From: Bacteroidota bacterium
GTDB lineage: Bacteria > Bacteroidota > Bacteroidia > Bacteroidales > DTGW01
Assembly: GCA_029550865.1 (NCBI GenBank)
Contig: JAKPGM010000073.1
Coordinates: 1-64,000 of the forward strand
Direction of reading: 5' to 3'
Length of the DNA stretch: 64,000 nt
The position numbers and the translations under genes are program-made. Below are positions 19,018 through 62,330 of this stretch, one piece after another; the first letter of the stretch is position 1, and each line of letters begins with the position of its first letter. Below the pieces are notes generated by a model. It was not told where the DNA came from. It did not search any database and was given only the letters and a program-made list of their open reading frames with translations.

Positions 19018-19162
19018 GGCTGAAACGAGCATGTATGGCAGAATTCACAAACGAGGATGAAAATATTTATCTGTTTCGTACTTGCCTATGTGTAGAAAGT
19101 TTATCACATGCGAGTTCCATCCTGCCGATTTAAAAAAAGTTTAAAATTATTTTTGGATAAAA
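19018..19162 (+). repeat. dispersed GGATGAAA-bounded element, copy A
   Basis: GGCTGAAACGAGCATGTAT...CACATGCGAGTTCCATCC, ending GGATAAAA at 19155. Confidence 0.85.
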
Positions 19163-19281
19163 CCTTCATTATTGTGCTCAAGCACAAACACACAATGAAT
19201 AAAATGGGGAATATTATCCATACAACGAAATGGAAAAACGGTTTAAATAATTAATATTCAACATATTAAATAATTTTATTC

Positions 19282-19388
19282 GGATGAAAATATTTATCAG
19301 TTTCATGCTTGCCTATGTGTAGAAAGTTCATCACATGCGAGTTCCATCCTGCCGATTTAAAAAAGTTTAAAATTATTTTTGGATAAAA
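19282..19388 (+). repeat. dispersed element, copy B (internally deleted)
   Basis: Starts CGGATGAAAATATTTATCAG; right half and tail match copy A; left about 37 bp missing. Confidence 0.85.
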
Positions 19389-21381: not shown

Positions 21382-21556
21382 TAAGTACCCTTTTTATTTT
21401 TTAGTGTCAACGTTTTTGCTAAACGAACATGTATATTTTTTCGGCATAAAACATATTCCAATGCGCTTTTACCGACCTTGCAAAAAAAATTAAAATTATT
21501 TACGTGTGATAAATATTTCCTCCTGCCGCTCTTATGAGTACCTTCAACTTAGTCAT

Positions 21557-21615
21557 CCTCACCCCGTCCTGTCGTCCTCCCCTCTCCTTTGTAAGGAGAG
21601 GGGAAGGGGGTGAGG
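21557..21615. repeat. G/C-rich nested hairpin, copy 1
   Basis: Inner CCCCTCTCCTT-TGT-AAGGAGAGGGG (21579-21603) inside CCTCACCCC...GGGGGTGAGG. Confidence 0.85.
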
Positions 21616-21796
21616 TGATACCCTATTGCTACCATAATATCACCCCTACGGGGTTGAAAGAGTTTGGTAAATTTAAGGTTCGTGCTCGTCAATGTACAGA
21701 AAGATTTGATGCATGCGAGTTTTATCCAAAGGGATTTATATTATAGGTAGGTGCCAAAGTCTCAGCGTGTCATACGGTATTTTACAACTTAGCCAA

Positions 21797-21855
21797 CCTC
21801 ACCCCGTCTTGTCGTCCACCCCTCTCCTTTGTAAGGAGAGGGGAAGGGGGTGAGG
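21797..21855. repeat. G/C-rich nested hairpin, copy 2
   Basis: Same arms as copy 1, offset 240 bp. Confidence 0.85.
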
Positions 21856-22038
21856 TGATATCCTATTGCTACCATAACATCACCCCTACGGGGTTGAAAG
21901 AGTTTGGTAAATTTAAGGTTCGTGCCCGTCAATGTAGAGAAAGATTTGATGCATGCGAGTTTTGTCCAAGGAATTTATAATTTTATAGGTAGGTACCAAA
22001 GTCTCAGCGTGTCATACGGTATCCTACAACTTAGTCAT

Positions 22039-22097
22039 CCTCACCCCGTCTTGTCGTCCACCCCTCTCCTTTGTAAGGAGAGGGGAAGGGGGTGAGG
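22039..22097. repeat. G/C-rich nested hairpin, copy 3
   Basis: Same arms as copy 1, offset 242 bp from copy 2. Confidence 0.85.
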
Positions 22098-22230
22098 TGA
22101 TATCCTATTGCTACCAAAGTTTTCACCCCTACTGGGTTCAATAAGGTTTGGTAATATTTAATGGTTGTTTAAAGGAGTTGTGGGGGAGAGATGATATAAG
22201 GTTTCGTCTTGGGGCGTAATACCTGAACTT

Positions 22231-47186: not shown

Positions 47187-48770
47187 TTATAGTTTTTTTA
47201 TCACAAACAGATAAACATCGTTTTCGTGTAAAGGCACCTCTCGCCGGTATTGTCCTTGTGGATTGATTTCGATTATTTCCCTGGCAGTGGGTTGTCCACT
47301 GCTTTGATTTTTCAAAAACTCTACCTGTAGCGGGGTTAGCTGATCGGGGCGATTGAGTTGAATATAACTTGAATAGGGATCGTTGTGCTGGTAACCAATT
47401 CGGTAGGTTTCTAAAATATACTTTCCCTGTGGAATGCCGTTGACATCGAGTGCTAAGGTACCTTTGGGGCGAGCAGGTAGGTCGCGGATGTAATAATCCT
47501 GGTTATTGATGCTATCGGGGAGGGTGAAGGTAAAGTCCCAGCAGAGAATCTGTAAGTCGCCGTTTTCGTTTTTGCATGCCCAGGATCGGGTGTCGTTGTT
47601 GGCTAATTCGATTTCGCCCATTTTGTTAAGGAAAGCAAAGGCATGGTAAGCAGGTTTTTTAATACCCTGGTAATTGAGCAACCCAAATCCTCCATGAAAC
47701 GGGGTGAAACGTGGCCCGGCTTCTTCGAAAATATCGGTAAATACCCAATAGGACATGGATTGGGCGGCATCGCCAACCTGTTTTATTTTTTCAAGGATGT
47801 AGGCAGCCTGATGATAGCTATCGTGGATGGGATCGGCAGGGGTGTAGGATGAACTCCATTCGGTGTAATGTAGCTCGAGATGAGGCATTGGCGAAGCGGC
47901 GATTTCTCGGCGCGATTCGATAACATCCTTGCTTACACTCCAGGGGTCTTTGCTTAAAATAGTACCTGTTTCACCGTATTGATCGAGGTATCCTGCTTCT
48001 ACTCCGTACGAGTGGGTACTGATAAAGTCAATGGGAACGTTGTTTTTATGGCAGAATTCGATCAGTTCCGATTCCCATGCAGCACCTGCTGTAGCGGGTC
48101 CTCCTACCCGATAGGCTGGGTTAACCCTTTTTATAGCCTGAGCTGCATGTTTGTATAGCTTGAAATAATCATCCTGTGTACCCGTCCAGAAATAAGGGGT
48201 GAGATTGGGTTCGTTCCATACCTCAAAATACCAACTTTTCACCTCTTCTGGACCATAACGGTCGGTAAAGTGCCGAACCAGATGCTCGATAAGTTTTTCC
48301 CAGCGTTGATAGTCTTTTGGCGGAGTTACATTGCCTTTCCACCAAAAGATGGTTCGGTCGCCGCTGGCAAGCGCTGAGGGCATAAAACCAAGCTCAACAA
48401 AAGGTTTCATGCCAATGCTTAAGATAAAATCGTACAGTACGTCGATATACTGGTAATTATATTGCGGATTTCCGGTGCGATCTTCGCGATAAACTCCCAT
48501 GTCGTCGCACAATAATCCGTGCATGCGAATGTATCGGAAGCCACATTCCTCTCTTACTAACCTGAGTTGTTGCTGCCAGTCGGCTCGCAATCCTTCGTTT
48601 GCTCGTCCTGCTCCTACGCATTCCTTAAAAAAGGTGTTGAATTTCCCTTTCTCCTGCCTATAATCGATTGTGATTACTCGGCGGGTTTCCTGTTTTGTTT
48701 TGGGTGCTGCCCAGGTGGGTGTTCCAAATAATACCAGCAGCAAACTAATGACAATAGATTTTGCTTTCAT
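47187..48770 (-). CDS. GH39-family glycoside hydrolase (beta-xylosidase-like)
   Basis: YGPEEVKSWYFEVWNEPNLTPYFW, LHYTEWSSSY; signal peptide. Confidence 0.85.
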   Translation of the reverse strand: MKAKSIVISLLLVLFGTPTWAAPKTKQETRRVITIDYRQEKGKFNTFFKECVGAGRANEGLRADWQQQLRLVREECGFRYIRMHGLLCDDMGVYREDRTGNPQYNYQYIDVLYDFILSIGMKPFVELGFMPSALASGDRTIFWWKGNVTPPKDYQRWEKLIEHLVRHFTDRYGPEEVKSWYFEVWNEPNLTPYFWTGTQDDYFKLYKHAAQAIKRVNPAYRVGGPATAGAAWESELIEFCHKNNVPIDFISTHSYGVEAGYLDQYGETGTILSKDPWSVSKDVIESRREIAASPMPHLELHYTEWSSSYTPADPIHDSYHQAAYILEKIKQVGDAAQSMSYWVFTDIFEEAGPRFTPFHGGFGLLNYQGIKKPAYHAFAFLNKMGEIELANNDTRSWACKNENGDLQILCWDFTFTLPDSINNQDYYIRDLPARPKGTLALDVNGIPQGKYILETYRIGYQHNDPYSSYIQLNRPDQLTPLQVEFLKNQSSGQPTAREIIEINPQGQYRREVPLHENDVYLFVIKKL

Positions 48771-48909
48771 CCGAAAATATTTTTAAATGTTTTTTAAATC
48801 GGTCGGATGGAACTCGCATGTGATGAATTTTCTATACATAGGCAAGTACGAAACTGATAAATATTTTCATCCTCGTTTGTGAATACTGCTATACATGCTC
48901 GTTTCATCC
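48765..48909 (-). repeat. dispersed element, copy C1 (core 48805-48909)
   Basis: Minus-strand GGATGAAACGAGCATGTAT...CACATGCGAGTTCCATCC; next GGATGAAA (48772-48765) is the GH39 start. Confidence 0.9.
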
Positions 48910-48939
48910 GAAAATATTTTTTAATTTTTGATAGTGGTC

Positions 48940-49044
48940 GGATGGAACTCGCATGTGATGAACTTTCTACACATAGGCAAGTACGAAACTGATAAATATT
49001 TTCATCCTCGTTTGTGAATACTGCTATACATGCTCGTTTCATCC
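48940..49044 (-). repeat. dispersed element, copy C2
   Basis: 105-bp core nearly identical to C1, in tandem at 135 bp. Confidence 0.9.
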
Positions 49045-49077
49045 GAAAATAATTTTAAAAATTTTTCTTAAAAGGTC

Positions 49078-49178
49078 GGATCGAACTCGCATGGATGAGT
49101 TATCAACCATAGGTAAGTGCTAAGATAATATTATTTTCATACTCTTTGTAATTACTGGCATACAAGCTCGTTCATACC
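49078..49178 (-). repeat. dispersed element, degenerate copy C3
   Basis: GGATCGAACTCGCATGGATGA...GCATACAAGCTCGTTCATACC, recognisable but diverged. Confidence 0.75.
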
Positions 49179-49187
49179 TTTTTGTTT

Positions 49188-50936
49188 TTATTGATTAGCG
49201 CCTTCCATGATGGCGTCGAGGGCTTGCTGGTCAAAAACTTTGAGGTTGGGACGGTCAAATATACCACTGGCAAAAGCCCCCAATCCTCCATTGTCCCAGT
49301 AAAAGGGCAGTATGCCATTTTCTCTGGCCTTCTGGGTTACATATTTTAGATAGTATGCCCGTGAAGCAAGATGCAACTGCAAAGCATCGCCTGTAAGATT
49401 TGAACGACGAGTTGGGGCATACTCACCCAATACTACCGGGATTCCCTTGTCGACAAACTGCGTCTTCATCAGCCCAAATAGTCGATCAACCGTTTCTTCT
49501 TCGCCCCAGGTGGCATTGCGTTCTGTATCGGTAGTGGAATGGTAATCTTTTCCCCAGTAGTAAAACATCTTGCCCCAGCTTTCGTCTTTTTCCATTCCGC
49601 AAAAGTTCCACGGGGTGTAGTAGTGTATTTCTACCATCATGCGATTGGGTGTCTTATCCCTGGGTAATTTTTTCATCAGGTTGTAAGTTTTTTCAATATC
49701 GGTCGAGGGACCCTGGATGACCAGCACACGATAGCTATTTCGGCCACCGGTAGCTCGCACTGCGTTAATAAAGGTTTGATGATACGAGAGCAGTACATTC
49801 ATTTGTTCGGCATTGTCGACATTGGGTTCGTTAGCGCTGGCAAATAGGAGGTGTTCGTCGAAATCGCGAAGGTGGGTAGCAATCTGCTCCCAGAAGGCTT
49901 TTTGTTTTGCATTATTTTCTTTTTGTTTTTGAACGGTACAGTTATTTTCGAGCCATCCACCGTCCCAGTGAATGTTGAGAATGACGTATAGGTTTGCATC
50001 AACACAGTACTGTACCACCTCTTTCACACGATCGAGCCAGTCGGGGTTGAGTTCGGCAGTTTCCTGGTCAATGACGTATTGGTTCCATGAGCAGGGGATG
50101 CGTATAGCATTAAAACCACTTGCCTTGACAAGATCGATAAGGGCTTTCGAAACTTTGGGATTTCCCCAGGCGGTTTCGCCGCCAATAGCCTCGAGCGTGT
50201 TGCCAATATTCCAACCTACTTTAATGGCCGATGCAATTTGTTGGGCGGTGCTCCCCATTCCCGATGCATCGGGTGCCAGCGGCGATGTATTATAGCTGGG
50301 ATACAGGCTGGCCTCCTGAGTAATTTTTATAACTACAGTCGGGGCATTTTCTGCAGTAATTACCAGGTCGCCGTTTCGGTTTTGGGTTAGCGGATTATCG
50401 CTCACGTAAACTTTTATCTCGGTGCTACCCGATGTCCCCTGTAACTGGCTACAATTAATCCATTCGGCCTGAGATGTAATGATCCATTGCGAAGCATTGG
50501 TGGTTATTACGATCGTTGACGAATCTTCGGCATTGGAAAAATTTAACTGCGATACATTGCTGGTTAACGTGTAATCGAGCTGTGTGGCACCCTGAGTAAT
50601 AATAACTTCAACCGGTGTTGCATCGCCCGCAGTGAAGATTAAGGTATCGCTGCGGTTTGTCGTGGTTTGCGTGTTAACGGTGACTGTAACCACATCTTTT
50701 GGCCCTTTCCCAAAATTATGGGATAGCTGAATCCATGAGGCTATCTTACTGCTTATCTTCCAATTACTGGCATTGGTTTCAACTACCAGACTATCGGTTC
50801 CTCCACCAGCTGGTATTTCAATTCTCGACGGAGATACCGTTAGCGTATTATGTTCATTGTTTTTTTCACAACCTGCCAGCCATGTTGGAAAGGTAGCCAG
50901 TGCCAACCATAACCATTTTCTCCCTTTCGATTTCAT
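49188..50936 (-). CDS. BACON-domain GH5 endoglucanase-type glycoside hydrolase
   Basis: Two BACON-like repeats (WKISSKIASWIQLS, WIITSQAEWINCS), GH5 VGWNIGNTLEAIGGETAWGNP, FASANEPNV, VVLGEYAP. Confidence 0.9.
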   Translation of the reverse strand: MKSKGRKWLWLALATFPTWLAGCEKNNEHNTLTVSPSRIEIPAGGGTDSLVVETNASNWKISSKIASWIQLSHNFGKGPKDVVTVTVNTQTTTNRSDTLIFTAGDATPVEVIITQGATQLDYTLTSNVSQLNFSNAEDSSTIVITTNASQWIITSQAEWINCSQLQGTSGSTEIKVYVSDNPLTQNRNGDLVITAENAPTVVIKITQEASLYPSYNTSPLAPDASGMGSTAQQIASAIKVGWNIGNTLEAIGGETAWGNPKVSKALIDLVKASGFNAIRIPCSWNQYVIDQETAELNPDWLDRVKEVVQYCVDANLYVILNIHWDGGWLENNCTVQKQKENNAKQKAFWEQIATHLRDFDEHLLFASANEPNVDNAEQMNVLLSYHQTFINAVRATGGRNSYRVLVIQGPSTDIEKTYNLMKKLPRDKTPNRMMVEIHYYTPWNFCGMEKDESWGKMFYYWGKDYHSTTDTERNATWGEEETVDRLFGLMKTQFVDKGIPVVLGEYAPTRRSNLTGDALQLHLASRAYYLKYVTQKARENGILPFYWDNGGLGAFASGIFDRPNLKVFDQQALDAIMEGANQ

Positions 50937-55255: not shown

Positions 55256-55395
55256 GGTGAAACGAGCATGTATAGCAGTATTCACAAACGAGGATGAAAA
55301 TATTTATCAGTGTCGTACTTGCCTATGTGAAGAAAGCTCATCACATGCGAGTTCCATCCGACCACTATAAAAAATTAAAAATATTTCGGATGAAA
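55256..55395 (+). repeat. dispersed element, copy D
   Basis: GGTGAAACGAGCATGTATAGCAG...GTTCCATCC then GGATGAAA at 55388. Confidence 0.9.
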
Positions 55396-62185: not shown

Positions 62186-62330
62186 GGTTGAAACGAGCAT
62201 GTATGGCAGTATTCACAAACGAGTATGAAAATATTTATCAGTTTCGTACTTCCTATGTGTTGAAGGCTCATCACATGCGAGTTCCATCCGACCTTTTAAG
62301 AAAATTTTTTAAAATTATTTTCGGATGAAA
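62186..62330 (+). repeat. dispersed element, copy E
   Basis: GGTTGAAACGAGCATGTATGGCAG...GTTCCATCC then GGATGAAA at 62323. Confidence 0.9.

Follow-up and report, generated by a model that had tools for sequence, protein, structure and literature searches.

A short folded repeat of Bacteroidota that inserts precisely at ATGAAA and rebuilds start codons

In insertion sequences of the IS200/IS605 family, a guide 5′ of a hairpin foot pairs with the target and with the terminal tetranucleotide (PMC6006769), and repetitive extragenic palindromic (REP) sequences carry a GTAG/CGTC tag (PMC3733652). Here we describe a short mobile repeat (the element) that resembles both. It was found in a 64,000-nt stretch of a Bacteroidota genome (the window; positions 1 to 64,000 of contig JAKPGM010000073.1, assembly GCA_029550865.1, or G000:C50:1-64000 in our numbering), where three copies form a tandem array between two glycoside hydrolase genes, GH5 and GH39. 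The source genome (G000) is a draft of 2.5 Mb in 79 contigs, 84% complete. The element inserts precisely, has ATGAAA as its preferred target, rebuilds the start codon at this site and has a folded structure. It is apparently undescribed in the open-access literature that we searched (subscription papers and preprints were not covered).

The element shares with the IS200/IS605 family (PATE-like and left-end/right-end (LE/RE)-only members) a fixed target tetranucleotide, GAAA (TTTC on the other strand), which is kept at one end, matched at the other and present in the empty sites, and a guide just 5′ of a hairpin foot that is complementary to the target and the terminal tetranucleotide, as the covariation of foot and right end indicates. 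But no tnpA was found for it, one hairpin and one guide would serve both ends, its pairing runs 2–4 bases past the target and covaries, and the target is a start-codon hexamer. IS200/IS605 elements have separate left and right hairpins; the element has two adjacent hairpins, of which the second contains the target itself. Like REP sequences and bacterial interspersed mosaic elements (BIMEs) with their REP-associated tyrosine transposases (RAYTs), the element is high-copy, extragenic, folded and non-autonomous; unlike them, it is 90–140 bp long (versus 20–40 bp), inserts precisely at ATGAAA, has no GTAG/CGTC tag at its foot and has no cognate RAYT that we could find. The original prediction, made from the letters of the window, had called it REP-like, which is apt by analogy only, for its folded guide-like foot. 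Miniature inverted-repeat transposable elements (MITEs) such as Correia and BrickBuilt of Porphyromonas gingivalis are likewise short, non-coding, mobile, intergenic and apparently trans-mobilised, but the element lacks terminal inverted repeats (TIRs) and lands on start codons, not mainly upstream (start codons are not mentioned in PMC10969869). As with integron attC sites, it is a folded single-strand site with imperfect inverted repeats, sometimes arrayed; unlike attC, no RYYYAAC/GTTRRRY core was read at its ends, there are no cassettes, and insertion is at GAAA. We file the family with short trans-mobilised repeats, and not as a MITE, a REP or a member of IS200/IS605.

Ends, target and rebuilt start codons

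Comparison of flanks shows that isolated copies share a stretch that starts with GAAACGAGC at its left and ends in ...CGGAT at its right, with GAAA next to it. Joined flanks of copies were searched in relatives, and the empty sites thus found give the insert as GAAAC...CGGAT, with GAAA at both junctions. In a genome of the same genus (G001), the sites of window copies F and G (Table 1; the alignment is weaker for G) are empty, as are those of two other G000 copies, L010 and L036 (a signal peptidase II-like gene). The L144 site of Anaerophaga DSM 12881 is empty in strain Valhall, where it is a native start (...CAAAT/GAAACC; the slash marks the junction), and the L079 site of Marinilabilia MSL42 is empty in JCM 21150. 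In the latter, the empty target reads ...GAATGAAC/GAAATA (AAC-GAAATA) versus CGGAT/GAAATA at the occupied right end: since this target has no AT before GAAA, the AT is supplied by the element. Among isolated left ends, AT precedes GAAA in 71 out of 77 at gene starts and in 62 out of 84 at non-start sites, so the preferred target is ATGAAA. The GAAA at both ends is compatible with a target site duplication and with a retained IS605-type target alike.

These ends replace the earlier picture of a 105-bp unit bounded by TIRs. Full-length copies in the window are 133–137 bp long. The imperfect inverted repeat that had been noticed is present (19 nt arms, 84%), but its right arm is internal and not terminal: the insert extends ∼30 bp beyond the supposed right TIR, which is an arm of an internal palindrome. 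GAAACGAGC and, on the reverse strand, ATCCG are the true termini; they differ and are not inverted repeats of each other, and the TIR/MITE identity is not retained.

At the right junction, ...CGG-AT from the element and GAAA from the target make a new start codon behind an AT-rich leader that is part of the element. The insertion point of the array is the ATGAAA start of the GH39 gene, whose ATG (48770–48768) takes AT from copy A and G from the target (the end rule for copy A is taken from the empty sites in relatives). Because the right end adjoins this start codon, position 48765, proposed earlier as the edge of the array, falls in the first codons of the GH39 gene. The order GH5–GH39 is kept in G001, with about 130 bp of ordinary sequence between the two genes and no element. 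The claim of a non-autonomous mobile element is supported by many dispersed copies, precise empty sites in relatives (including those of copies F and G) and the absence of the array from a genome of the same genus, which is the opposite of syntenic conservation with no mobility.

84 out of 160 single right ends (i.e. those with no further element, no copy of the second repeat family described below and no contig end after them) form the ATG of an open reading frame (ORF) of 60 aa or longer; the GH39 gene is one of these. The proportion differs among groups: 15/27 in G000, 14/51 in Anaerophaga and 43/53 in Prolixibacteraceae-like metagenome-assembled genomes (MAGs); in G046 it is 14 out of 20 readable ends. 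Compared with the full set of ATGAAA sites in these loci, starts are enriched; their excess over non-coding ATGAAA is large in the MAGs and in G046 and not significant in Anaerophaga, and the ATGAAA hexamers of the elements themselves inflate the intergenic class. A preference for starts as such, beyond ATGAAA targeting, is no more than possible. The element may confuse start-codon calling.

Fold, copy number and distribution

Two hairpins, lying next to each other on one strand, emerge from RNAalifold and from explicit counts of pairs. Hairpin 1 joins the left end with an inner arm, AAC(GA)GCATG/CATGC(GA)GTT; hairpin 2 joins an internal foot, CATNNG, with the right end of the element plus the start codon, NNGATG. 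In a first alignment (A1, 42 sequences), double-sided changes number 9 versus 1.0 after shuffling, with much of hairpin 1 fixed by the search pattern. A second alignment (A2, 30 mostly diverse sequences collected with a covariance model) has 41 double-sided changes versus 10.9 ± 2.6 and a covariation score of 0.290 versus 0.109 ± 0.011 after shuffling (slid controls ≤0.093), and both hairpins covary; the collecting model includes the structure and so biases A2 in its favour, while many of the pair types in A2 are rare in or absent from the training set. In a count independent of the model, foot and right end are fully complementary for 26 out of 43 non-CCG feet, versus at most 14 in 2000 within-genome shuffles. 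The tandem GA/GA of hairpin 1 is kept in 28 out of 30 sequences and is CC/GG in G046. Rfam 15 has no match at the elements in the window (where it finds tRNAs only) or at six loci.

A BLAST search with the 135-bp unit finds at least 53 copies of at least 99 bp in G000 itself, a lower bound, as 40 of 172 candidate regions were scored and further places were later found by the covariance model. Identity to copies elsewhere in the genome is as high as 98% over 135 bp (E about 1e-62), which excludes chance; the whole-genome search proposed earlier thus gave copies outside the window. At least seven contigs start or end inside an element, and the element breaks assemblies.

An exact-pattern search of contigs yielded at least 120 stretches, including Marinilabilia, Anaerophaga, Thermophagus, Alkaliflexus and Prolixibacteraceae. 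With covariance model R1, the element is found in 67 out of 247 genomes of the order (E ≤ 1e-3; the E-values are rough, and at least one match, L295, looks false) and in six more genomes elsewhere in the phylum (E ≤ 1e-6). In five of these six, the ends are of the same type and lie mostly at start codons; the copy in the other (G269) was unconfirmed by eye. One subfamily has about 35 copies in G046, of which at least 11 are at 98% identity or more, which suggests recent spread. Among 50,697 phage records and 72,556 plasmid records, none matched the element at the sensitivity of the search; a single IMG/VR contig was found. Element-bearing contigs were also seen in unexpected taxa, L122 (labelled Desulfobulbaceae CROMO_A_116) and L167/L175 (labelled as a Chitinophaga pinensis MAG); these are likely mis-binned or mislabelled.

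Candidate enzymes and alternative explanations

We consider that these repeats probably constitute a family of short (about 90–140 bp) non-autonomous mobile elements that insert at GAAA, chiefly in ATGAAA, rebuild the start and carry a fold recognised by a trans-acting single-strand transposase of the IS200/IS605-like kind. The fold would be the recognition signal for this enzyme. On the strand opposite the gene, TTTC/AT would flank the element and its other end would finish in TTTC; the guide GGAA, 5′ of the hairpin foot, would pair at one end with TTTC of the target and at the other with the terminal TTTC, one of the GGAA/TTTC pairs being G-T. A fixed specificity for ATGAAA would make start codons the main harmless insertion sites, and arrays would grow because each insertion recreates ATGAAA.

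Several points weigh against this reading. No transposase was found within a copy or next to one, the element-bearing genomes do not all have any one Y1 subclass in common, and a stand-alone Y1 is missing from G046 despite its many near-identical copies. A 4-bp duplication by another enzyme would give identical junctions, and ATGAAA targeting together with removal of insertions from coding DNA may alone explain much of the location at start codons.

If the element were moved by a resident Y1 transposase (a RAYT, or Quentin subclass 1.2 or 2.6), it would be an oversized REP or a true deletion derivative of IS200/IS605. Every genome searched has some Y1 match (G000 has three Y1 genes), and the architecture agrees with the guide/target rule. 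Yet the transposase or RAYT with matching ends that had been suggested did not appear: in a scan of 45 Y1 loci for element ends, no locus had the element at its borders, no subclass is shared, the RAYTs inspected are accompanied by other REP-like repeats, and the Y1 domain of G046 lies solely within a large methyltransferase-like ORF. We regard this explanation as unlikely, and resident Y1 transposases, for which no association with the element was found, were rejected as the helper. At one of the 45 loci (L206, in a copy-rich genome), copies of the element lie about 0.5 kb from the Y1 gene. As a separate observation, an apparently intact Y1-like domain (NHVH ... Y-I-x-x-N-P) is in frame in the large methyltransferase-like ORF both in Anaerophaga (L218) and in G046 (L312). 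A classical RAYT/REP pair unrelated to the element was also seen in G000 (L065, G000:C65, about 1960–2890), where a RAYT gene is followed by an array of GGTAGTCCCGTTAGGGACGACC-type palindromes.

Y2 enzymes of the IS91/Helitron type were rejected as the helper too, with PF04986 absent in 11 out of 15 element-bearing genomes. No transposase was found between two element ends; the sole long spacer (529 bp, L187) consists of unrelated repeats. Nor was a parental transposase with the same ends seen in the copies or their flanks (no DDE-family search was made). The helper is possibly encoded on missing contigs or supplied horizontally. That neither Y1 nor Y2 tracks the element, and that a single stretch inside the element corresponds to the donor end as well as to the target, would suit spread by an RNA-guided or RNA-templated route, e.g. 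an IS110-type recombinase with the foot as bridge, or reverse transcription of the leader RNA; but the pairing spans only about 6–8 nt, whereas known bridge RNA loops are longer, and we find such a route quite unlikely. A classical MITE, derived from a DDE insertion sequence with TIRs and a 4-bp GAAA target duplication, could account for GAAA at both ends and for a non-coding, high-copy repeat with an imperfect inverted repeat; it is improbable given that this repeat is not at the termini (the true ends, GAAACGAGC and ATCCG..., are unrelated), that the target is a fixed non-palindromic hexamer and that the termini covary with an internal foot.

The fold also bears on the rebuilt start codon. 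In predicted folds, the AUG is hidden in hairpin 2 in three single gene-start copies (P unpaired 0.00–0.08); in G046 it is mostly paired too (0.00–0.19), in a different predicted fold, and it is mostly unpaired in the tandem copy of the window (0.74–0.76), because the inner foot is predicted to pair with the end of the upstream copy. Hidden AUGs, their predicted release in the tandem copy and phylum-wide covariation are what a vertically inherited, immobile cis-regulatory leader RNA hiding the start codon would give, but precise empty sites in close relatives, the lack of the array in G001, many near-identical copies, unrelated downstream genes and copies at non-gene sites make this highly improbable. 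The element may influence gene regulation incidentally, or have been put to this use later. A wider proposal, which we offer tentatively, is a phylum-wide class of elements whose guide-like fold targets ATGAAA starts, which replace the leader and hide the rebuilt ATG so that the gene comes under a transferable translational switch, and which are moved by an undescribed type of enzyme.

An element whose target hexamer is also a common gene start, ATGAAA, and which restores the start and a leader, clearly illustrates how a parasite chooses a low-damage site; at a stroke, the element can also rewire 5′ leaders across many unrelated genes. It predicts a helper enzyme common in Bacteroidota, for the finding of which the near-identical copies, empty sites and covarying fold are ready substrates.

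Copies in the window and neighbouring repeats

The array (48765–49172 by Tandem Repeats Finder: period 135, 3.0 copies, 85% matches) is arranged head-to-tail between genes matching PF00150 and PF01229, and the description of two near-identical copies and one degraded copy at ∼135 bp was accurate: copies A and B are 94% identical over 135 nt, and copy C is at ∼79%. The related copies placed at 19018, 19282, 55256 and 62186 are all real, the one at 19282 without its left half. Coordinates are collected in Table 1.

Table 1. Copies of the element, adjoining repeat and flanking genes in the window
Feature	Position	Strand	Remarks
Copy A	48769..48905	-	137 bp, GAAACGAGC...CGGAT; right end adjoins GAAA of the GH39 gene
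Copy B	48906..49040	-	135 bp; tail ...ACCACTATCAAAAATTAAAAAATATTTTCGGAT
Copy C	49041..49173	-	133 bp, degraded; tail of a third type, ...ACCTTTTAAGAAAAATTTTTAAAATTATTTTCGGAT
GH39 gene	47187..48770	-	527 aa; PF01229, E 7.5e-128
GH5 gene	49188..50936	-	582 aa; PF00150; upstream of the array
Copy D	19022..19158	+	Full length
Second repeat family	19159..19285	+	Between copies D and E; AAACCTTCAT...TTTTATTCGGAT; from sequence comparison
Copy E	19286..19384	+	Left part missing; starts at internal GAAAATATTT
Copy F	55259..55391	+	In the leader of a shikimate kinase gene
Copy G	62190..62326	+	Upstream of recA

The AT-rich tails of array copies A, B and C are of three different types, and copy B is 98% identical to a distant copy (G000:C18:16212) versus 94% to its neighbour A. 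We therefore rejected tandem duplication of one unit by slippage as the origin of the array; the tails and the distant best match of copy B fit independent, repeated insertions into a recreated ATGAAA. A short coding gene (an M-K-R-A... frame) was also rejected, as copies have 1-nt indels and in other subfamilies the frame stops after 2–4 codons.

A second repeat family (GAAACCTTCATGATTGTGCTCAAGCACAAAC...TTAAATAATTTTATTCGGAT) often follows the right end of the element and resembles it in its ends but not in its foot (window 19159–19285, L003, L004, L020, L032, L034 and L043); besides the window copy, it follows six other right ends in G000, and it may depend on the machinery that the element uses. 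A third repeat (AACGCTAAGAAAAATCTCTGCGAACTTTGCG...TTTGCGTGAGGA) is seen in the left flanks of L011, L020 and L042, where it runs into an AT-rich stretch ending near (G)GATGAAA beside the element. A different ATGAAAC-bounded repeat (ATGAAACAACCATGAGAACCTTAAAGTTCTC...AAATTATTTACAC) stands in tandem at positions 1–200 of L075 (G069). The window holds one further tandem repeat, at 21541–22166, with a 240-bp unit (2.6 copies, 91% matches) and C-rich inverted segments.
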